A DNA stretch of 64,000 nucleotides from Falsiroseomonas stagni DSM 19981 (lineage in GTDB: Bacteria > Pseudomonadota > Alphaproteobacteria > Acetobacterales > Acetobacteraceae), in NCBI RefSeq assembly GCF_900114315.1, contig NZ_FOSQ01000001.1, forward strand, positions 1,199,718-1,263,717, in the 5' to 3' direction. The position numbers and the translations under genes were made by a program. Shown in pieces: positions 6,211 to 26,712 of this stretch (positions are counted from its first letter, which is position 1; every line of letters starts with the position of its first letter). The notes under the pieces are model-generated. The model had not been told where the DNA came from. It searched no databases and saw nothing but the letters and a program-made list of their open reading frames with translations.

Positions 6211-7725
6211 TTGGACCTCCCCCCGACCCACACCACCAGCCGCACCCACCCGCCCCGCCTCGGCGTCGTGGACCTCGGCTCCAACTCCGTCCGCCTGGTC
6301 ATCTTCGAAGGCCTGACCCGCAACCCCCTGACCATCTTCAACGAGAAAGCCGTCCTCGGCCTCGGCCGCGGCCTGCAACTCACCGGCCGCCTCAACGAAG
6401 CCGCCATCGACCCGGCGCTGACCGTCATGGCCCGCTACGCCGCCGTCGCCCGCGCCATGGGCGCCAACCCCGTCCAGGTCATCGCCACCGCCGCGGCGCG
6501 GGACGCGGAAAACGGCCCCGCCTTCATCGAAGCCATCCGCACCCGCCTGCCCGACATGCCCGTCCGCGTCCTGACCGGGGAGGAAGAAGGCCGCCTCTCC
6601 GCCGACGGCGTCCTCCTCGGCTTCCCCGGCGCCGACGGCATCCTCGGCGACCTCGGCGGCGGCTCCCTCGAACTCGTGGACCTGCGGCACGGCACCGCCG
6701 GCCCCGCCGCCTCCCTCCCCATCGGCGCCATCCGCCTGGCCGACCGCGCCGGCGGAGACCCGCTGCGCGCCCGCGCCATCGTCGAATCCGAACTCGCCCG
6801 CATCCCCTGGCTGCGGGAAGGTGAGGGCAGGGACCTCTACCTCGTCGGCGGCGCCTGGCGCGCTTTGGCCCGCATGCACATCGCCCAGACCGCCTACCCC
6901 CTCTCCATCGTCCACCACTACGTCCTGCGGCGGGAGGAAGCCCGCGACCTCGCCGGCCTCGTCGCCCAATCCCCCCGCAAGATCCTGGAGAAAATCCCCG
7001 GCGCCCCCGCCAAGCGCCTCGGCGACATGCCCTTCGCCGCCATCACGCTGCGGCGCCTGCTCCGCGCCACCGGCGCCCGCCGCGTCGTCTTCTCCGCCAA
7101 CGGCCTCCGCGAAGGCTGGTACGCCAACCTCCTGCCCGACCCCATCCGGCAGGAGGAACCCCTGCTCGCCGCCGGCCGCGAACTCGCCCAGCGCTGGGGC
7201 CGCGACACCGCCCTCGCCCCCGCCCTCCTCGCCTGGACCCACCCCCTGTTCGAGGATGAAGCCCCCGAACAACAGGACCTCCGCGAAGCCTCCTGCTGGA
7301 TCGCCGACATCGGCAGCCACGACCACCCGGACTACCGCGCCGAACAAGCCTTCTACCGCGTACTCCGCCAGCCCGGCGTCGGCCTGGACCACCACCAGCG
7401 CGCCTTCCTCGCGATGGTCGTGGCGCTGCGCTACGAAGCCGACACGACCATGGGCTTCCTCGCCACCGCCCGCGTGCTGCTGGACGCGAGCGCCGTGAAG
7501 CGCGCCGAGATCCTGGGCGCCGCCCTGCGCCTGGCCTTCACCCTGTCCGGTGGCACCCCGGTGCTGCTGCGCGGCACATCACTGCGCCGCCACGGCGGGG
7601 AATTGCAGTTGAGACTTGTGGAGGGCAGCGGCGTCTTCGCCGGGGAGAGCGTGCAGCGAAGGCTAGACGCGTTGGCCGCCGTGCTGGGGCTGACCGCAAC
7701 CGTCGAAGTCTCAACGGCGGGCTGA
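6211..7725 (+). CDS. ppx: Exopolyphosphatase (Ppx/GppA family)
   Basis: 504-residue ASKHA-fold enzyme that removes terminal phosphates from polyphosphate or hydrolyses pppGpp. The phosphate-1 motif VDLGSNSVRLV lies near residue 20, TGEEEGRLSADGV near 125 and the phosphate-2 motif GDLGGGSLELV near 145. An all-helical C-terminal domain follows. The start is TTG at 6211 with an AGGA sequence 11 bases upstream; a GTG at 6268 is possible but would cut very close to the first motif. It is the last gene of the hdaA-ppk-ppx run, and a hairpin repeat lies 9 bases after the stop. Confidence 0.9.
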   Translation: MDLPPTHTTSRTHPPRLGVVDLGSNSVRLVIFEGLTRNPLTIFNEKAVLGLGRGLQLTGRLNEAAIDPALTVMARYAAVARAMGANPVQVIATAAARDAENGPAFIEAIRTRLPDMPVRVLTGEEEGRLSADGVLLGFPGADGILGDLGGGSLELVDLRHGTAGPAASLPIGAIRLADRAGGDPLRARAIVESELARIPWLREGEGRDLYLVGGAWRALARMHIAQTAYPLSIVHHYVLRREEARDLAGLVAQSPRKILEKIPGAPAKRLGDMPFAAITLRRLLRATGARRVVFSANGLREGWYANLLPDPIRQEEPLLAAGRELAQRWGRDTALAPALLAWTHPLFEDEAPEQQDLREASCWIADIGSHDHPDYRAEQAFYRVLRQPGVGLDHHQRAFLAMVVALRYEADTTMGFLATARVLLDASAVKRAEILGAALRLAFTLSGGTPVLLRGTSLRRHGGELQLRLVEGSGVFAGESVQRRLDALAAVLGLTATVEVSTAG

Positions 7726-7733
7726 ACCCTAAA

Positions 7734-7781
7734 CCCTCCCCCGCGCTTGCGGGGGAGGGAGGGGCCCGTGCGAAGCACGGG
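7734..7781. repeat. Double hairpin repeat downstream of ppx
   Basis: The first hairpin has a perfect 11-base stem, 7734-7744 paired with 7749-7759, and a GCTT loop. The second has a perfect 7-base stem, 7765-7771 paired with 7775-7781, and a GAA loop. A G-rich tail follows. There is no T-run, so it is not a classical intrinsic terminator, although it could end or stabilise the ppx transcript. Elements of this CCCTCCCCCGC type recur between genes in GC-rich Acetobacteraceae genomes; that statement is from general knowledge. Confidence 0.7.
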
Positions 7782-7910
7782 AGGGTGGGGGACCGCGCAC
7801 CCCCGCAAACCCACAAGCAACAGCATCAAGATCGGGGCTCCGCCCCGAACCCCGCTGGGGACGATGATCGTCCCCAGACCCCACCCAAATTGGCGCCCCT
7901 CGCCGAATGC

Positions 7911-8324
7911 CTACCCGTCGAACCCCGCCACGAACTCCCCCGCCGACACCACCGCCACCCCGCGCCACGGGTTCAACACCAGCAGGTCCGCATCCCCCGA
8001 CACGATCACCCCCGCGCCACCCGCCAGCGCTGCCTCCAGCACCATGTTGTCCTTGGCATCCCGGCAATCCGTCACCGCCTCGACCGGCTCGACCCGATCC
8101 GCCCGCACCAGCAGCGCCCCCACGAACCCCGCCACCACCTCGGCCGAGGCGCCATACCGCCGGAACTTCGGCCGCATCAGCACCCCGCGAAGCTCCGCCT
8201 CCATCGCCGCGGAGAAGCACAACCGGAACCGCGCACGCGCCACCAGCAACGCCGTTGCCGCCACGCCACCCGGCGCGACGAAGGCACTCACCAGCAAATT
8301 CGTATCAAGGACGATCCGCGGCAC
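7911..8324 (-). CDS. PIN-domain toxin of a type II toxin-antitoxin pair
   Basis: About 137 residues with the PIN pattern: VLDTNLLVSAF at the N-terminus, a central acidic residue in the CRDAKDN segment and VSGDADLL near the C-terminus. PIN toxins are Mg-dependent RNases that cut tRNA, rRNA or mRNA. GTG at 8324 was preferred because it gives a start just before the first strand and a 20-base overlap with the antitoxin stop, typical of co-translated TA pairs. An ATG at 8357 would add a basic 11-residue leader. It is transcribed after the antitoxin gene at 8305-8550. Confidence 0.8.
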   Translation of the reverse strand: MPRIVLDTNLLVSAFVAPGGVAATALLVARARFRLCFSAAMEAELRGVLMRPKFRRYGASAEVVAGFVGALLVRADRVEPVEAVTDCRDAKDNMVLEAALAGGAGVIVSGDADLLVLNPWRGVAVVSAGEFVAGFDG

Positions 8325-8550
8325 GATAAGCGGCGATCTCCGCCTCGATCTCCGCATCCGTGAGGTCAGGCACCCCCGGCTCTCGCTTCAACCCCGCGAG
8401 CAGCGCCACCAGCGGATCAGCCTCCCCCGCCGGCGAATGCAGCAGCCGCGTGAGCATCTGCCCGGCCAGCGAAAGCTTGGCCGGATCATCCCGCAACATG
8501 TCCGCCGCCTCCTGCGAGAGCGGCACGGGCACCATGACCACCTGGTTCAT
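8305..8550 (-). CDS. Antitoxin of the PIN toxin pair
   Basis: 81 residues starting MNQVVMVPVPLS, with a perfect AGGAGG Shine-Dalgarno at 8556-8561. The N-terminus (VPVPLSQEAADMLRDDP) is the likely DNA-binding part and the acidic C-terminus (DLTDAEIEAEIAAYR) the likely toxin-binding tail. It overlaps the start of the PIN gene, and TA antitoxins normally repress their own promoter. A diverged copy lies just upstream at 8603-8842. The antitoxin family was not recognised with certainty; the call rests on size, position and the PIN partner. Confidence 0.75.
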   Translation of the reverse strand: MNQVVMVPVPLSQEAADMLRDDPAKLSLAGQMLTRLLHSPAGEADPLVALLAGLKREPGVPDLTDAEIEAEIAAYRAADRP

Positions 8551-8602
8551 CGGAACCTCCTGCGCCCCAGCATAACGCCAGAGCGCGCGACCTTCACGCG
8601 AA

Positions 8603-8842
8603 TCAACGCCGCTCCGCGTTCCAGGCGGCAAGCTCGGCATCCACATCTGCCTCGTTCAGCCCGGCCGCCTGCGCCTTGCGCCCTATCGCGTCCATCATCG
8701 CCAGCAGCGGATCGCCCGGCGCGGAGTCGCGCAGCAGATCATCAACCAAGCCCTCCACCATTGAGAGCTTCGCCGGACCGTTGCGCGATATGTCGCCTGC
8801 TTCTGGCGACAACGGTATTGCTCCCAGTATTGGCAATAGCAT
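8603..8842 (-). CDS. Second antitoxin-like protein, no toxin of its own
   Basis: 79 residues that align along their length with the product of 8305-8550: IPLSPEAGDISRNGPAKLS matches VPLSQEAADMLRDDPAKLS, and the tail ADVDAELAAWNAERR matches AEIEAEIAAYRAADR. It lies in tandem directly upstream of the pair on the same strand, with no second PIN gene between them. It may be an orphan left from a duplicated TA module or an anti-addiction decoy. The ATG at 8842 has no strong ribosome-binding site, so the start is uncertain. Confidence 0.6.
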   Translation of the reverse strand: MLLPILGAIPLSPEAGDISRNGPAKLSMVEGLVDDLLRDSAPGDPLLAMMDAIGRKAQAAGLNEADVDAELAAWNAERR

Positions 8843-8929
8843 GGGAGTGTCCCTACCTCCGCTCTGGCGCTTACTCAGCTACCTAATAAAGACTACGAAT
8901 GTCGAAAGGTTGTGAATCGCTTCAAGTTA

Positions 8930-10123
8930 TCAATTGGTATACGAGCTATTTTCCTGGGCAGGAGTCTTAACATTCATGTCTGGATTTCGGTATAATAGGG
9001 AGGCGTTGGTCGGAACGCGCTGACGTGGCATCCAATGATCAGACAATATTGTTTTCGATCTCCGGAGCTTGGCCACGAGCTTGTTTAGCTCAGCATGAGT
9101 AATGGCGCGGCGGGACAGAACCTGTGGCCATATCTCACCGTAGGCTGTCGCGTCTGTTGCGCTGCTCCCTATAAGCGCAAGCAGCATTTGTTCGGCGAGT
9201 TCTGCCTCGCGTTCAATAAATGCAGCTATCGCACTCGGCTTCATTTCCGCGGATGAAAATAGTTCTGTCTGCGATCCGCTCCGCGACTCCATTTTTACTC
9301 CGTCCCGAACGATCTCCTGTTCTTCTATGGTTTTTTGTTGAGCGTCGCGGAATTCCTTGACCCCGGCTCGGTGTCGGGTCGCGTAGACCAGTGAGTAGAT
9401 ATGTCGATCTATACTCGGCCGCAATATCGGTGTTTCAGCAACAAAGCTATAGCCCCCAACGTCGCGGAGTGTCTGAGCGAAAGCCTCAAGAATGATGGAC
9501 CGCCGCTCTTCGCTCGGCGCTGATAATAGTCGTTCGCGCCAACTTGTGGTTGTAATTAAATTATTAACTTTGCTGACAATATTGGAATCGTTCATCGAAA
9601 TGGCGCGATTGATAAAGTCAAACATGAAATTAAATAGAATTTCAGTGTTTGGCCGCCTTAGCAGTGGTACAATTTCTGAGGTATTGATTCCCCAACCCTT
9701 GGGATCAATAAATAAAAAGGTAAAAGTTGAGAATGATAGGCTGTTCATCAGGGCGGGGACAAGAGTTACAAAATCTCCCCTGAGTGGCGTAATTTCTATA
9801 TCTGGATACCGTTCGGGTACTTCGGTGAGCTTGGCAAACGCTTGAGCGTTCTTTTCAACTAAAAGTGCGCGCATTCTTATGTGGTGGCCGTGATTTGCCC
9901 AAGCTTGCTTCGCTTTGCGCATTTCCTCCAGCGCGATTCCGAAAGATGTATCTGAAAATGTGTCGCTACTACTTTGCCATGGGCCGGAAAATCCATCAAC
10001 ATATGTGAATTCTTGGAATGCCCCAGCAACCTTGTGTATCAAGCGCGAAAAATAATTCCTCAAGAGATAATGTTTTATGTATGCTTGTTCTCTTCCTTTA
10101 TAGTTTTCTGGCGGGTTTGCCAT
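8930..10123 (-). CDS. tcmP: Three-Cys-motif partner protein TcmP-like
   Basis: 397 residues. The N-terminal third resembles a Rossmann methyltransferase: a YVDGFSGPW strand-loop near residue 41 (compare the DxFaGpG motif I) and FLFIDPKGWGI near residue 137 (a DPxG-type motif IV). The C-terminal half is helical, with a winged-helix-like end. TcmP proteins are encoded beside DUF5131/Gp37-Gp68 three-Cys-motif proteins, and exactly such a gene ends 2 bases upstream. No reaction is established. Base composition is far more AT-rich than the neighbours, with long A/T-rich codon runs, indicating horizontal acquisition. The start ATG at 10123 directly follows the partner's stop. Confidence 0.8.
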   Translation of the reverse strand: MANPPENYKGREQAYIKHYLLRNYFSRLIHKVAGAFQEFTYVDGFSGPWQSSSDTFSDTSFGIALEEMRKAKQAWANHGHHIRMRALLVEKNAQAFAKLTEVPERYPDIEITPLRGDFVTLVPALMNSLSFSTFTFLFIDPKGWGINTSEIVPLLRRPNTEILFNFMFDFINRAISMNDSNIVSKVNNLITTTSWRERLLSAPSEERRSIILEAFAQTLRDVGGYSFVAETPILRPSIDRHIYSLVYATRHRAGVKEFRDAQQKTIEEQEIVRDGVKMESRSGSQTELFSSAEMKPSAIAAFIEREAELAEQMLLALIGSSATDATAYGEIWPQVLSRRAITHAELNKLVAKLRRSKTILSDHWMPRQRVPTNASLLYRNPDMNVKTPAQENSSYTN

Positions 10124-10125
10124 TT

Positions 10126-10869
10126 TTAAGCGACCTTCGCGCGAATGCTCGAGTCCGGTAGATCATTCCATTCCCGCCCATCAAGCGAACGACCTCCAGT
10201 TTTTGGTCGAAAGCCTCCCCACTGCTTGAAAAAAAAGGCTACGCCTTGTTCGGCGCACTGGTCACGAACCTCTCTTGCCCAATCGATATGCATCGGGCGG
10301 GCGTTAGGGCCACTTTCTCCACCCGCGATGACCCAATGTATGTCTCTCAAATCGAGCAGTCCAATGGACCCGATCAAGGGCTCTATTGACAAAAAGCGGA
10401 CGGCCGATGGCGATCCACGGAGATGCTCAATTCGGCTTTTGGCGCCCGCGTCCTCGACGGATACCCCCGTCCAGATATGCGCGGGTGGCGACGTTTTCTC
10501 GTACCGTCGCTTGAGATATGCGCGCATGGTCGAACTGCGCTTGGTCAGCACCTGAAAGACATGCCAGTGGGCTGTCTCCATCGTACTGAACACTTGATCG
10601 ATAAACGGGGCTGGGACTCGCTTGTGAAACAGGTCGCTCATCGAATTAACAAAAATCATGCGAGGACGGCGCCAAGATAAAGGCTGCGAAATCCGTTCCG
10701 GCCTGATGGTTAGATCAAAGCCGTTCTCAAACGGATGTCCCGCCACGCCACGGAATCGCTCTGAGAATCGCGCCGCGTAGCAGTTATCGCAGCCGCGCGT
10801 TATCTTCGTGCAACCCGTAACCGGATTCCACGTCGCATCTGTCCACTCAATGGTGCTGCCATCTGCCAT
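10126..10869 (-). CDS. Three-Cys-motif protein, DUF5131 / phage Gp37-Gp68 family
   Basis: 247 residues. The N-terminus carries IEWTDATWNPVTGC followed by two more cysteines, giving C20-x6-C27-x2-C30. This matches the family's presumed Fe-S binding motif and is reminiscent of radical-SAM-type folds. Later conserved-looking segments are FVNSMSDLFH, GVSVED and VIAGGESGPNARPMH. It is the first gene of a two-gene unit with the TcmP-like gene. The family occurs in phages, plasmids and genomic islands. Composition is AT-richer than the host. The biochemical role is unknown; RNA or nucleotide modification is a guess based on the paired methyltransferase-like protein. Confidence 0.8.
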   Translation of the reverse strand: MADGSTIEWTDATWNPVTGCTKITRGCDNCYAARFSERFRGVAGHPFENGFDLTIRPERISQPLSWRRPRMIFVNSMSDLFHKRVPAPFIDQVFSTMETAHWHVFQVLTKRSSTMRAYLKRRYEKTSPPAHIWTGVSVEDAGAKSRIEHLRGSPSAVRFLSIEPLIGSIGLLDLRDIHWVIAGGESGPNARPMHIDWAREVRDQCAEQGVAFFFKQWGGFRPKTGGRSLDGREWNDLPDSSIRAKVA

Positions 10870-11040
10870 GACGGTTACCTTGGAAGTACGTGCACAAGAC
10901 TAACTGGGCTCCTAAATCATGGCAATAAAAACGCGCAAGTGGCTGGTCAGCAACGAATCCCCTTCGCCGTAGGTAGCACCCCCTGACAGTTCGCATGGTG
11001 GTCACGAAAATCGTTGCGTGTAGGACGAAAATCTTATACG

Positions 11041-11703
11041 ATGGTAGGCTCTGGCACGTCGGATCCCCCCATGCTCCCCCTCCACCCCACCCCCTCCCAC
11101 CCCTGGTCCCCCCTGACCGACGAGGAGTGGCACTTCCTCGAACCCTATCTCCGCCCCACCAACAAGCGCACCGGACGCCCGCCGAGGGACCGCCGCGCCA
11201 CCTGGGACGCCATCTTCTGGCTCGCCGTCACCAACGCCCCCTGGACCGCCCTCCAGGCCAATCGGCGCGTCACCAAGGGCAACGCCCACAGCGCCCTCGC
11301 CACCACGGCCAGGACGGGCGTCCTATCCCGTCTCCTCCTCGCCGTCTCCCGTCATCCCTTCGCGGACCCGGCCCTCGCCTCCCTGGAATACCGCATCGCC
11401 ACCACCTTCCGGCGTGCGTCCCGGATCGTGCCGGCGGAGGATCTGCTCCTCGCCCGTACCCTCGGCATGGCCACCGCGCTGCCGCTCGATCCGGCCGATC
11501 TGCCGCCGCCGCCGAAGCCCGGCGCGCCCCTGCCGCCTGATCGCATCCGCCTGGTCCTGCGCATCCCGGCCCAGGCGCTGCGCGGCCTCCCGGCCCCGCC
11601 GCCCGCCCGCGTCCCGCGCCGCCCGCAGGCGCCCCTGCTGCCGATCGCGCACGCCACAGCGCAGCCCCGCCGGCGGCGGGGACAGCATGAAAAACGGTGC
11701 TAA
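11041..11703 (+). CDS. Stand-alone transposase-derived (DUF4096/IS5-type N-domain) protein
   Basis: 220 residues from ATG 11041; ATG 11071 is an equally good start. Residues about 20-75 look like the N-terminal domain of IS5-group transposases: WSPLTDEEWHFLEPYL, then GRPPRDRRATWDAIFWLAVTNAPW. After this the sequence diverges into a short helical region and a proline/arginine-rich tail (LPPPPKPGAPLPPD). No DDE catalytic domain and no second transposase frame follow, and no terminal inverted repeats were found. Host-like GC content argues for a resident, domesticated or decayed gene rather than a recent insertion. It borders the AT-rich tcm island. Confidence 0.6.
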   Translation: MVGSGTSDPPMLPLHPTPSHPWSPLTDEEWHFLEPYLRPTNKRTGRPPRDRRATWDAIFWLAVTNAPWTALQANRRVTKGNAHSALATTARTGVLSRLLLAVSRHPFADPALASLEYRIATTFRRASRIVPAEDLLLARTLGMATALPLDPADLPPPPKPGAPLPPDRIRLVLRIPAQALRGLPAPPPARVPRRPQAPLLPIAHATAQPRRRRGQHEKRC

Positions 11704-11751
11704 ATGCACCTAATCGGCTAAATGGGCTTTACGGCTCAGCCCCAACCCCTT

Positions 11752-11774
11752 GATTCCGAACGAAAGCCGGAATC
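11752..11774. terminator. Hairpin between convergent genes
   Basis: A 7-base perfect stem, GATTCCG at 11752-11758 paired with CGGAATC at 11768-11774, lies between the transposase-derived gene and rnd, which converge here. There is no strong T-run, so the terminator function is tentative. Confidence 0.4.
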
Positions 11775-11825
11775 GACCCCTAAAAATACTATGCCTAAAT
11801 CCGTAGTAGCGCCCGGACCCGCAAG

Positions 11826-13007
11826 CTAACCCGCTGAAATCAGCCGGATCTTCTTCCCGTCCACGCCCAGCGCCACCTTGCCCGCCTTCAGCGACAGCGC
11901 CGCTTCCCCGAACACGTCCCGCCGCCAGCCCACCAGCGCCGGCACATCGGTCTCCCCGGCCGCCAGGCGTTCCAGCTCATCCGTATTGGCCAGCAGGCGG
12001 GGCGCCACGTGGTGCTCCTCGCTCTTCGCCGCCAGCAGCACCTTCAGCAGTTGGACCAAAGCGGGGGAGGGGGCTGCCCCGCTCCGTTCCCGCGGCGCCT
12101 CGGGCAGGGCGCTGTCCGGCAGCCCCTTCGCCGCGGTGATCGCCGCCAGCAGGCTCGCGCCGGACTTGCCCTTGGCGAATCCCTCGGAGATGCCGCGCGC
12201 CCGCGCCAGGTCGTTCACCGTCTCCGGCGCCGTGGCCGCGATCTCCAGCAGGGTTTCGTCCTTCACCAGGCGCTGCCGGGGGATGTTGACGCGCTGCGCC
12301 TCCTTCTCCCGCCACGAAGCCGCGGCGCGCAGGATGCCGAGGAACCGGCGGTTATGCGTCCGCGGCCGCAGCCGCTCCCACGCCGTCTCGGGGTCCTGGC
12401 GATAGGTCGCGGGGTTCGCGAGTTCCCCCATCTCCTCCGCCACCCACCCGTCGCGGCCCTCGCGCGCCAGCTTGGATGTCAGCCCGGTATAGATGCGCCG
12501 GAGGTGCGTCACGTCGGCGGCGGCGTAGTTGATCTGGGCGGGGGAGAGCGGGCGCGCCGCCCAGTCGCTGAAGCGGTGGGCCTTGTCGATCTGCGCATTG
12601 GCGAGGGAGCGGGCGAGCTGGTCATAGCTCACCTGGTCGCCGAAGCCGGCCACGGTGGCGGCCACCTGCGTGTCGTACAGCGGAGTCGGCACCGCCCCGA
12701 ACTTCAGCAGGAAGATTTCCACGTCCTGCCGGGCCGCGTGGAACACCTTCACCACCGCGGGGTCCGCCAGCAGCGCCCCCAGCGGTGCCAAATCGAGCCC
12801 CGGCGCCAGCGCATCCACCACCGCGACCTCATTGTCGCCCGCAAGCTGGACGACGCAGAGTTCGGGCCAGTAGGTCCGCTCCCGCATGAATTCGGTGTCG
12901 ACCGTCACGAAGGCCTCGGCACGAAGCCGGGTGCACAGCGCGCTGAGGGTCTCGGTATCCGTGATCAGGTCAGGCGACGCGTCGGCGCCCGGGGTGCGGC
13001 GGCTCAT
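11826..13007 (-). CDS. rnd: Ribonuclease D
   Basis: 393 residues. This is a 3'-5' exoribonuclease of the DEDD family that trims tRNA and other RNA 3' ends. VTVDTEFMRERTYWP carries the Exo I Asp-Glu pair, FHAARQDVEIF the Exo II Asp, and the segment with QINYAAADVTHLRRIY the Exo III Tyr and Asp. An HRDC helical domain follows near residues 220-300. ATG at 13007 was chosen because the upstream open frame is basic and of low complexity. It is divergent from aspS, 125 bases away, an arrangement seen in other alphaproteobacteria. Confidence 0.92.
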   Translation of the reverse strand: MSRRTPGADASPDLITDTETLSALCTRLRAEAFVTVDTEFMRERTYWPELCVVQLAGDNEVAVVDALAPGLDLAPLGALLADPAVVKVFHAARQDVEIFLLKFGAVPTPLYDTQVAATVAGFGDQVSYDQLARSLANAQIDKAHRFSDWAARPLSPAQINYAAADVTHLRRIYTGLTSKLAREGRDGWVAEEMGELANPATYRQDPETAWERLRPRTHNRRFLGILRAAASWREKEAQRVNIPRQRLVKDETLLEIAATAPETVNDLARARGISEGFAKGKSGASLLAAITAAKGLPDSALPEAPRERSGAAPSPALVQLLKVLLAAKSEEHHVAPRLLANTDELERLAAGETDVPALVGWRRDVFGEAALSLKAGKVALGVDGKKIRLISAG

Positions 13008-13132
13008 GGGAACCCGTGTAGACCCGCGGAGGGGCCGGGGGAAGCCATGCTGGTCCCCTTGGGCCCTTGACAGGAGGGGCCCCGTGCGGCGCTTTCGCCC
13101 CGGAATCCTCATTTGCTCGCAGGCCCATACCC

Positions 13133-14950
13133 ATGCACGCCTATCGCACCCATACCTGCGGCGCCCTCCGCGCCACCGATGCCGGCAAGACCGTCCGCCT
13201 CTCCGGCTGGGTGCACCGCAAGCGGGACCATGGCAGCCTGCTGTTCGTGGACCTGCGCGACCATTACGGCCTGACCCAATGCGTGGTGGCCCAGGGCGCC
13301 CCGGGCTTCGACACCCTGGATAACGCCCGCCCCGAAAGCGTGGTGACCGTGACCGGAGAGGTCGTGCCCCGCGAGGGCAGCACCATCAACCCCAAGCTCC
13401 CGACCGGAGAGATCGAGCTTCGCGTGCGGGAGGTGACGGTCCAGTCCGCGGCGGAGGTCCTGCCCATCCAGGTCGCCGGAGAGCAGGAATTCCCGGAGGA
13501 TCTCCGCCTCCGCTACCGCTTCATCGACCTGCGGCGCGAACGTCAGCACCGCAACCTGATGCTCCGCGCCAGCGTCATCGCCAGCATCCGCCGGCGCATG
13601 ATCGATCAAGGGTTTACTGAGTTCCAGACCCCCATCCTGACGGCCAGCAGCCCGGAGGGTGCGCGAGACTTCCTCGTCCCCGCCCGCAACCACCCCGGCA
13701 AGTTCTACGCCCTGCCCCAGGCCCCCCAGCAGTTCAAGCAGCTGGCGATGGTCGCCGGCTTCGACCGTTATTTCCAGATCGCCCCCTGCTTCCGGGACGA
13801 GGCCAGCCGCGCGGACCGCTCGCCGGGTGAGTTCTACCAGCTTGACTTCGAGATGAGCTTCGTCACCCAGGAAGACGTCTTCGCCGCCATCGAGCCTGTT
13901 CTGGCCGGCGTGTTCGAGGAATTTTCGTCCTATTCCGGCACCAAGCGCGAAGTCACGCCGGCGCCCTTCCCCCGCATCCCCTATGACCAGGCGATGCTCG
14001 AATTCGGGTCGGACAAGCCGGACCTGCGCAACCCGCTGCGCATCGCCGATGTGACCGAACACTTCGCCGGCGGCTCCTTCGGTCTTTTCGCCAAGATCAC
14101 GGCCTCCGGCGGCGTCGTCCGCGCCATCCCCGCGCCGGGTGCCGCCAGCCAGCCCCGCCGCTTCTTCGACCAACTGAACGAATGGGCCCGCAGCGAGGGC
14201 GCCGGCGGCCTCGGCTACATGACGTTCGAGGGTGGTGTCGGCGCCGGCCCGATCGCCAAGAACCTGGAACCCGCCCGCGCCGCCGCGCTGCGCGACGCGA
14301 TGGGCCTGAAGGATGGCGACGCCGTCTTCTTCGCGGCGGGGAAGGTGGAGGACGCCGCCAAGCTCGCCGGCAAGGCCCGCACCCGCATCGGCACCGACCT
14401 CGGCCTGGTCGAGAAGGATGTCTATCGATTCTGCTGGGTGACGAACTTCCCCATGTATGAGCTGAACGAGGAAACCGGCCAGATCGACTTCAGCCACAAC
14501 CCCTTCTCCATGCCGCAGGGGGAGCTGGAGGCGCTGAACACGATGAACCCGTTGGATATCAAGGCCTACCAGTACGACATCGTCTGCAACGGCATCGAGC
14601 TGAGCTCAGGTGCCATCCGCAACCACCGCCCCGACATCATGCTCCGCGCCTTCGAGATCGCGGGCTATGGCGCGGAGGTCGTGGAACAGCGCTTCGGCGG
14701 CATGCTGAACGCCTTCCGCTACGGCGCCCCCCCCCACGGCGGCTCCGCCCCCGGCATCGACCGCATCGTCATGCTGCTGGCCGATGAGCCGAATATTCGT
14801 GAAGTAATTTTGTTTCCTATGAATCAGCAGGCGGAAGACCTGATGATGGGCGCCCCCGCGGCGGTGGAACCGGCCCGGCTGAAGGAGCTGTCGATCAAAC
14901 TCGACATCCCCCCCGCCAAGACGGGTGCGGCCGGGCCCAAGGCGTCCTAG
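13133..14950 (+). CDS. aspS: Aspartyl-tRNA synthetase
   Basis: 605-residue class II aminoacyl-tRNA synthetase charging tRNA-Asp. The N-terminal OB-fold anticodon-binding domain begins [10 protein letters not shown] and includes [20 protein letters not shown]. The catalytic core has motif 2 [10 protein letters not shown] and motif 3 [14 protein letters not shown], and the bacterial GAD insertion lies between them. Because many alphaproteobacterial AspRS enzymes also charge tRNA-Asn, the discriminating state is open. ATG 13133 matches the family N-terminus; upstream extension is non-coding in character. An eipB-like gene follows after 31 bases. Confidence 0.96.
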
Positions 14951-25809: not shown

Positions 25810-26712
25810 TCACGTCTGCTTTTCTGCCTCGTGCGGCATCATGTACTGGTTCAGCACGGGGCCTTTCCGGACTCTGGCGTTGTTGTCCATGACCCACATC
25901 AGTCTACGACGATGAAACCGGAAAACCGAATAGGGCGTTCCCGCATTCGTGCCCGCAATTTCGTTCCAGTCTTGTCTGGCATAAATCTCCAGCGTGGCGC
26001 CCGCCCCCGCCCTACCTCCCACAATTTTCCACGCGAATTCATTCTCATTGCCATTTTTCGTGATCAGCGAGCGTGTCAGGTGAGAGTCGCTATTTCCAAA
26101 ACGCAGTATCTTAAACTGCGTCGGCGAATCCGGAAAGAAAACAAATTTCTGTTCCGATACCGTCAGATATCGTTCCAGCTTCGCTGGGTCGGTCTCGAAG
26201 GGGCCTTCACGGAATTCCTGCACATACTGAGCGATGACATGCACGCCGCTCGTGAATCGAAGGCATGTCGAGATCAACGAATAGGCGATCGCCAGGAAGC
26301 CGGCTGTGCCGATAATGAAAATCAGGACATACTCGTTGAATTCCTTAACCGTGGCCTGCTTCTGTGATTTCATGAGAAACTCGAAGCCGCGTACGGGCCA
26401 ATAACAGGCTACGACGAGGATGGCGAAACAAAGGGTCAGGGAAAAATCAACGATCTCGGTCGAATTTTTTCTCAGCTCGGTCGGCTGCGAATGCCAGTCG
26501 AACGCTAGGCGAATCATCGATACGATGAGTATCGCGGACAGGAAATCGGCCAGCCTGACAGAGGTATCGATCCTGATGACGCCCAGCACAGTGCTTCCAT
26601 CGGCTATGGTGACATTGAGGATCCATGTGAGGATGTTGACGATCGCGAGCACCAACACCGTCCGCTTGAGGCGGTGGAAGTCGTTTCCGATCAGTGCTGC
26701 ATCAAGGCTCAT
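25810..26712 (-). CDS. Orphan integral membrane protein with soluble C-terminal domain
   Basis: 300 residues. Hydrophobic segments lie near residues 18-36 (TVLVLAIVNILTWILNV), 55-70, 88-105 (LTLCFAILVVACYW) and 130-150 (VLIFIIGTAGFLAIAYS). A soluble domain of about 130 residues follows. No family was recognised. Base composition is clearly AT-richer than both neighbours and codon use is relaxed, so it was probably acquired horizontally. It stands alone: the next gene upstream is 138 bases away and the one downstream is convergent in composition only. A pore-forming or sensor role would be speculation. Confidence 0.7.
   Translation of the reverse strand: MSLDAALIGNDFHRLKRTVLVLAIVNILTWILNVTIADGSTVLGVIRIDTSVRLADFLSAILIVSMIRLAFDWHSQPTELRKNSTEIVDFSLTLCFAILVVACYWPVRGFEFLMKSQKQATVKEFNEYVLIFIIGTAGFLAIAYSLISTCLRFTSGVHVIAQYVQEFREGPFETDPAKLERYLTVSEQKFVFFPDSPTQFKILRFGNSDSHLTRSLITKNGNENEFAWKIVGGRAGAGATLEIYARQDWNEIAGTNAGTPYSVFRFHRRRLMWVMDNNARVRKGPVLNQYMMPHEAEKQT

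Follow-up and report, generated by a model that had tools for sequence, protein, structure and literature searches.

Adjacent genes encoding a DUF5131 protein with three clustered cysteines and a 'three-Cys-motif partner' protein (TcmP) are already catalogued in PADLOC-DB, where such pairs stand as the candidate defence systems PDC-M30 and PDC-M41. No function was found for DUF5131 or TcmP in the literature searched, from which subscription-journal papers were mostly absent, and 'DUF5131' as a word occurred in none of these papers; 'three-Cys-motif partner' appeared, in the passages concerned, as list or table entries. Word searches, with sets that were not identical, gave no mention of the pair in PMC10853773, PMC7159879 or PMC12839542. 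The pair studied here lies in a stretch of 64,000 nucleotides (the window) from Falsiroseomonas stagni DSM 19981 (contig NZ_FOSQ01000001.1, positions 1,199,718 to 1,263,717). An initial annotation of this DNA took it for an undescribed module, a reading ruled out by the PADLOC entry. The leading reading of the present analysis, held with about even confidence, is that of a mobile two-gene module for the repair or modification of nucleic acid, whose main task would lie in the DNA-damage response.

Both genes lie on the minus strand, the DUF5131 gene first, with 2 bases between its stop codon and the ATG of the TcmP gene (Table 1), in agreement with the two co-directional genes proposed in the initial annotation. 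The DUF5131 protein matched Pfam family PF07505 (E 2.4e-95, 319.1 bits against a cut-off of 28.9) and carried the expected motif C20-x6-C27-x2-C30. The second protein matched NCBIfam TIGR04474 at 135.6 bits (curated cut-off 53), contained both VDGFSGPW and IDPKGW and had next to it the three-Cys DUF5131 partner that characterizes a TIGR04474 TcmP; no Pfam family matched it at E 0.1 in the Pfam scan. Each family was present as a single copy in the genome assembly (44 contigs), and the closest TcmP in the named collection, at locus L046, came from a Roseomonas metagenome-assembled genome (MAG). The AT-richer composition of the pair was also found, its G+C content being 0.505 against 0.709 in the remaining window. 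Among related loci with enough flank, the pair was below its flanks in 64 of 69, the median difference being 10 points; low G+C therefore characterizes the family rather than the locus, and the idea that it was peculiar to this locus was rejected.

Occurrence of the two families was scattered, with a DUF5131 match in 23 and a TcmP match in 15 of 146 relative genomes. Both are widespread; in an even sample of 398 genomes across the phylum, 24 had a TcmP above its cut-off. Their adjacency was nearly obligate. Genome loci were collected with a TcmP alignment (80 of 97 candidates kept), and DUF5131 adjoined TcmP in 76 of the 80: DUF5131 was first on the same strand in 64, TcmP was first in six, and the genes were divergent in four and convergent in two. 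Three of the four loci without the partner (L049, L078 and L115) had a contig end near TcmP, the fourth being L065, treated below; in the phylum sample (L161-L182), the partner was present at all 22 loci. Adjacency kept through four layouts is strong evidence that both proteins work together, and the reading of a methyltransferase fold acting jointly with a radical-SAM-like partner (SAM, S-adenosylmethionine) is well supported and, in our view, highly probable. The two proteins may form a physical complex. DUF5131 without detectable TcmP also occurs, notably in phages. Some loci hold two TcmP paralogues (L061, G403, G459, G375 and a P. aeruginosa plasmid resembling an integrative and conjugative element, ICE). 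Two different paralogues were seen in L061 (7785-9689, minus strand), L165, L169, L161 and L190, a variant with more than two genes.

C20, C27 and C30, together with a fourth cysteine, C205, were invariant in all 79 rows of the DUF5131 alignment (A4; rows with at least 200 aligned residues), and the x6/x2 spacing, checked by regular expression, was present in 77 of them. The predicted model displayed a radical-SAM barrel fold (VIA-align, rows 1-28), and it suggests a resemblance to spore photoproduct lyase. The canonical C-x3-C-x2-C was not present in the protein and PF04055 gave no match at E 0.1, which is why the term 'radical-SAM-like' is used here. Likewise, the spore photoproduct lyase family PF20903 did not match DUF5131 in the Pfam scan at E 0.1, and the NCBIfam model 'radical SAM mobile pair protein A' scored 61.4 bits, far under its cut-off of 355. 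The conserved cysteines could hold a [4Fe-4S] cluster, with SAM as the probable cosubstrate.

For TcmP, the predicted model combined a Rossmann methyltransferase fold with motifs I and IV, as in class I SAM methyltransferases; the methyltransferase likeness seen earlier in the two motifs was thus found again at the level of the fold. TcmP would bind SAM and transfer a methyl group, and its C-terminal winged-helix-like segment may bind nucleic acid. Eight residues (D43, F45, G47, P48, W49, E90, D140 and P141) were invariant in 84 of 84 rows of the TcmP alignment (A3). Its loci had been found by two patterns, one of which was VDGF[SA]GPW, so that the invariance of motif I was partly selected. 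Motif IV appeared as DPFG or DQYG in other TcmP subfamilies; these labels, like DPxGW, correspond to our own regular expressions. The window TcmP had no match to RlmJ (PF04378) at E 0.1, and a TcmP paralogue of L061 reached E 1e-5 and 26.3 bits with GMT-wHTH (PF22560), under the cut-off of 27. When solved structures were searched by sequence, neither the two proteins nor their profiles gave a usable match, the best result of the TcmP profile being a Hop2 chain at E 0.07.

One link with DNA damage came from locus L065 (Desulfarculaceae MAG JdFR-95), in which a spore-photoproduct-lyase protein, and not DUF5131, precedes TcmP and directly follows a LexA gene (Table 1). At this single locus, a lyase occupies the position of DUF5131, which is in line with the fold result and connects TcmP with LexA; the CRISPR (clustered regularly interspaced short palindromic repeats) neighbour, at the same single locus, ties TcmP to defence surroundings. 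Across 8252-13923 and 20245-21138 of L065, a row of LexA, lyase, TcmP and Cas3 genes was observed, with downstream cas-like open reading frames (ORFs), recognized by eye, and a CRISPR array of 15 repeats within the stretch.

Because of this cassette, a search for LexA boxes was made. Counts were restricted to upstream regions of at least 150-200 bases, and those over all loci and by subfamily to regions that differed in sequence; since the sequences are related, the counts do not represent independent events. The motif GTTC-N7-GTTC, given as the Caulobacter SOS box in passages of PMC9578287 and PMC4211646, was found in exact form before DUF5131 in 40 of the 68 loci counted, all with DUF5131 as first gene, and the same half-sites at other spacings from 3 to 13 occurred in 0-2 of 68. 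Since 36 of the 40 sites sat 10-32 bases ahead of the profile-placed start while the seven spacer bases varied, they represent a site and not general sequence similarity. Over all loci in hand, 44 of 118 had the exact box. For comparison, it was seen at 1 of 198 genes in the vicinity of the pair and at 1 of 196 genes in control stretches (2/198 and 6/196 in either orientation), and before none of 96 TcmP genes in second position. Within 70 bases of DUF5131 in the DPxGW subfamily, 36 of 82 loci had the exact box and six more of the 82 matched 7 of 8 positions; the corresponding control counts were 1 and 5 of 395. By subfamily, the box occurred in 38 of 82 DPxGW loci (under half), 1 of 10 DPFG and 0 of 10 DQYG loci, as well as in 5 of 23 mixed or unclassified loci and in none of eight stretches that contained DUF5131 but lacked TcmP. 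In the genus of the window, an exact box lay near lexA in all 14 genomes with a lexA match. These upstream sequences suggest that many DPxGW relatives are under LexA control, with LexA probably binding the box itself. A second type of motif, CTGT-N8-ACAG, gave no signal before the genes of the pair (2/118, 1/96, 0/44 and 0/14; controls 4/198 and 0/196).

In beta- and gammaproteobacterial loci, a palindrome around CGAAC-N4-GTTCG preceded TcmP in four of seven cases, the four being alike and not independent; it matches the Bacillus-type SOS box as given in a review table (PMC9578287/PMC4211646). The four are L095, L112, L114 and L115, where the palindrome lay around CGAACGATCGTTCG upstream of TcmP and was perfect in L112 and L114.

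A third line of evidence came from mycobacteria. According to passages of PMC3062782, Rv2735c of M. tuberculosis lies after recX and is co-transcribed with recA and recX, and in parts of PMC5057432 Rv2734, Rv2735c, recX and recA are given as the largest mitomycin-responsive gene cluster, in a condition with 128 genes up and only rrs and two noncoding RNAs down. For M. bovis BCG, passages of PMC7387457 list recX as BCG_2749c and the gene with a TcmP domain as BCG_2748c. A mycobacterial TcmP homologue thus seems to respond to mitomycin, the gene having been mapped to TcmP by position.

The LexA sites, the replacement by a lyase after LexA and the mitomycin-responsive homologue in the recA operon agree with the lyase-like fold, which is the reason for placing the pair in the DNA-damage response. 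As a working model, DUF5131 would bind a [4Fe-4S] cluster on C20, C27 and C30, cleave SAM and abstract hydrogen from a damaged or altered base, in a chemistry likened to that of spore photoproduct lyase. TcmP, RlmJ/Trm1-like with a winged-helix-like tail, would bind the same nucleic acid and methylate it, a step that would finish the repair or mark it. LexA would keep the operon off in many alphaproteobacteria until DNA damage turns it on, and the pair would travel as low-G+C cargo of hotspots, plasmids and prophages. A bolder version can be formulated tentatively, though we would sooner doubt than assert it: an undescribed kind of DNA-damage repair machine, made of a radical-SAM-like enzyme with a fold related to that of spore photoproduct lyase and a near-obligate methyltransferase partner, LexA-controlled, horizontally spread and borrowed by phages, which would repair or tag a lesion or crosslink for which no other enzyme is known. 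If the pair proved to be induced by DNA damage and necessary for surviving it, an entry of a defence catalogue would prove to be a repair system, with a new radical-SAM/methyltransferase chemistry on nucleic acid.

Several observations weigh against placing the pair in the DNA-damage response. The box was concentrated in the DPxGW subfamily, to which the window copy belongs, and among 15 genomes of the window genus a single one had an exact box near recA (recA loci L288-L302). The window copy itself had no LexA box, the best match within 70 bases being 5 of 8; a 7-of-8 match about 120 bases away was reached by 78 of 500 shuffles. Its nearest tree relative, L046, has the exact box and the next one, L051, a 7-of-8 match. 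The window copy is an ordinary member of the family without the box, which has either lost LexA control or is run otherwise, and it may share the role of its relatives; the finding is more interesting for the family than for this locus. On the structural side, no match to DUF5131 fell below E 0.001 when Foldseek was used by itself, and a profile comparison between DUF5131 and the L065 lyase was not significant (probability 2%). EgtD led the Foldseek matches of TcmP with low TM-scores, the profile comparison with RlmJ was not significant either (0.5%), and RlmJ and Trm1 act on RNA, not on DNA. Concerning mycobacteria, Rv2735c was taken as the counterpart of BCG_2748c from position and numbering, and a biofilm listing for BCG gave recX at +1.79 and BCG_2748c at -3.02 (passages of PMC7387457); the opposite signs imply that both genes need not move together. 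Finally, SOS control is used by prophages too and could serve defence, the neighbour of the same hotspot in the relative genome G013 is SIR2, and the site of a copy in a Gordonia phage is typical for lysogen-expressed cargo such as defence.

The neighbours reported earlier, a toxin-antitoxin module and a transposase-derived gene, were recovered: on one side lies a toxin gene with a PIN domain (TIGR00305), preceded by small ORFs, and on the other a DUF4096 (IS4/5-family) ORF. The accessory nature then ascribed to the site was borne out by its turnover. The flanks in G013 align to the window up to 8818 and from 11039 with 87-92% identity, and the toxin-antitoxin module and DUF4096 ORF there enclose a SIR2 gene (PF13289 E 2.2e-26, PDC-S25 E 4.9e-80). 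One contig of G005 carries the toxin-antitoxin module as well as the DUF4096-rnd flank (90%), and between them lies a different DUF5131/TcmP pair in opposite orientation; its DUF5131 was 41% identical to that of the window, and its TcmP was barely detectable (27.5% over 69 residues by BLASTP, E 0.052). A DNA methylase with a restriction-like domain was found in the ppx-rnd interval of G001, and a similar methylase in G003. The SIR2 gene, the second pair and the methylases indicate that this site collects defence-type cargo; at least two separate entries of the pair into it seem likely. The window gave no hit in Rfam and tRNA scans, so that no tRNA explains the hotspot. The DUF4096 ORF, the N-terminal part of an IS5-type transposase, stands alone at the border of the hotspot and had DNA matches in G013, G012 and G005 and a weak one in G001; it could be a remnant, or a gene that has been domesticated.

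Table 1. Features of the DUF5131/TcmP pair, its flanks and the L065 cassette
Feature	Sequence	Coordinates	Strand	Remarks
DUF5131 (Gp37/Gp68) protein	window	10126..10869	-	247 aa (amino acids); predicted radical-SAM-like barrel
Three-Cys motif C20-x6-C27-x2-C30	window	10780..10812	-	proposed [4Fe-4S]/SAM site; putative cluster ligands
TcmP-type protein	window	8930..10123	-	397 aa; predicted class I Rossmann methyltransferase fold and C-terminal helical/winged-helix-like part
Motif I VDGFSGPW	window	9977..10000	-	expected SAM loop; D43, F45, G47, P48, W49 invariant
Motif IV IDPKGW	window	9692..9709	-	expected catalytic loop; D140, P141 invariant; G143, W144 in at least 90% of A3
C-terminal winged-helix-like segment, residues ~298-362	window	9038..9232	-	helices and strand pair in model
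Variable cargo segment of insertion hotspot	window	8819..11038	.	boundaries from alignment with G013
PIN-domain toxin	window	7911..8357	-	PIN_3 E 1.4e-17; TIGR00305 E 6.8e-20; in G013, G005
Two small ORFs, presumed antitoxin type	window	8305-8646, 8603-8842	-	no family; tandem; in G013, G005
DUF4096 ORF, IS4/5-family	window	11014..11703	+	PF13340 E 5.8e-13; without rest of transposase
LexA gene	L065	8252-8902		S24 peptidase E 2.9e-29; LexA DNA-binding domain E 1.9e-10
Spore-photoproduct-lyase protein	L065	8881-9978		PF20903 E 1.3e-22; C-x3-C-x2-C; directly after LexA
TcmP	L065	9998-11161		
Cas3	L065	11221-13923		after TcmP

Some further observations concern the surroundings. The ppx-rnd interval (7725-11826 of the window; also L148, L193, L155 and L151) constitutes an insertion hotspot of the genus, and the two small ORFs before the PIN toxin gene resemble each other by eye. 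Elsewhere in the window, a second AT-rich patch (25810-26712, minus strand, 56% G+C) carries a 300-aa ORF resembling a membrane protein. A copy in the Gordonia phage Fairfaxidum (L189) consists of TcmP, annotated as a methyltransferase, and DUF5131 in convergent orientation, between an immunity repressor and a serine integrase.

A dedicated anti-phage role, which the initial annotation had inferred from the surroundings, is the main alternative, although we consider it somewhat unlikely. The pair would then modify or damage phage nucleic acid or mark self, perhaps upon induction by phage DNA damage. PADLOC component models, applied singly, matched the window DUF5131 strongly for both systems (PDC-M41B E 2.4e-101, PDC-M30B E 1.3e-99) and TcmP weakly (1.6e-12 for PDC-M30A). 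Besides the SIR2 gene and the second pair of the hotspot, the R. phaseoli plasmid copy lies in a defence island among Shedu, AbiGi and restriction-modification genes, the phage copy stands beside an immunity repressor and L065 has Cas3 next to TcmP. According to passages of PMC10855318, PDC-M30 was present in 32 of 100 P. aeruginosa strains, 68.8% of them in the resistant group, and the S. meliloti tcmP gene SMa2243 is listed together with hna (SMa2245) in part of PMC12445080. Other neighbours were diverse: a LexA-family regulator and a restriction endonuclease on a Pseudochrobactrum plasmid, RadC on two Sulfitobacter plasmids and a single-strand-binding protein on one, ICE genes in P. aeruginosa, an integrase and a GIY-YIG nuclease in Agrobacterium, a toxin-antitoxin pair in S. 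americanum, and IS66 and DUF3644 genes in R. leguminosarum.

The survey of neighbouring genes proposed earlier was weakly positive. Among 140 ORFs adjoining the pair, 54 PADLOC models fired, against 4 models among 138 control ORFs (at 1e-15, for 35 pair loci). These ORFs, taken from 203 and 198, respectively, were chosen by length and codon-position G+C and cut at 520 residues; stretches of the same genomes served as controls, contig C1 or C2 being used for genomes in which the home contig was short. The PADLOC table, with 25 of 54 families listed, gives models and not distinct proteins, related models being counted several times, and mad models fired for case and control ORFs alike (mad3 in 2 and 7 of them, respectively); the enrichment is for these reasons no more than suggestive. 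Of 163 Pfam families among the 140 case ORFs, the 25 listed were largely ordinary metabolic or housekeeping families. The literature searched yielded no experiment on whether the pair acts in defence, and neither the LexA boxes nor the lyase-like fold are predicted by a defence role. Evidence singling out the family (LexA boxes, the LexA-lyase-TcmP cassette, the lyase-like fold and the mitomycin response) favours DNA damage; given the boxes, the lyase replacement and the homologue in the recA operon, what was a vague defence candidate can be put as a specific question about DNA damage. Both roles can overlap, should the processing induced by damage act on phage DNA as well. Of the overall initial interpretation, the mobile accessory pair, the methyltransferase fold and a probable Fe-S/radical chemistry were retained.

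Another explanation, which we hold to be improbable, is based on RNA modification: an RlmJ/Trm1-like methyltransferase and its radical-SAM-like partner would act on rRNA or tRNA, in stress translation or in resistance to RNA-targeting toxins. Still less probable is a selfish cargo modifying the DNA of its own phage or plasmid to escape host restriction: searches with the two window proteins found DUF5131 in 161 phage records and TcmP in four, and 16 plasmid records had TcmP (8 typed conjugative), but the TcmP query gave 97 genome stretches against only 7 viral ones, a weak comparison between collections of different size, and the contig that carries the window copy measures at least 1.26 Mb, the copy being flanked there by ppx, a toxin-antitoxin module, DUF4096 and rnd.

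Among described systems, the window pair is most directly compared with PDC-M30/PDC-M41 (TIGR04474 with PF07505), which it resembles in both proteins, their adjacency, the three-Cys motif and a scattered distribution. Its TcmP, of the DPxGW subfamily, is nearer to PDC-M30A than to PDC-M41A, both matches being weak (1.6e-12 and 1e-6). From RlmJ (23S rRNA A2030 methyltransferase) and Trm1 (tRNA methyltransferase), TcmP differs by its DPKGW motif and its C-terminal winged-helix-like part, with no profile match. SplB (PF20903), a radical-SAM DNA repair enzyme, has the spacing C-x3-C-x2-C instead of the C-x6-C-x2-C of DUF5131, and no significant sequence match to it. Viperin-like enzymes, radical-SAM proteins that are antiviral in animals, gave a lower Z than the lyase against DUF5131 and have another cysteine spacing; they also differ in that DUF5131 is accompanied by a fixed methyltransferase partner.
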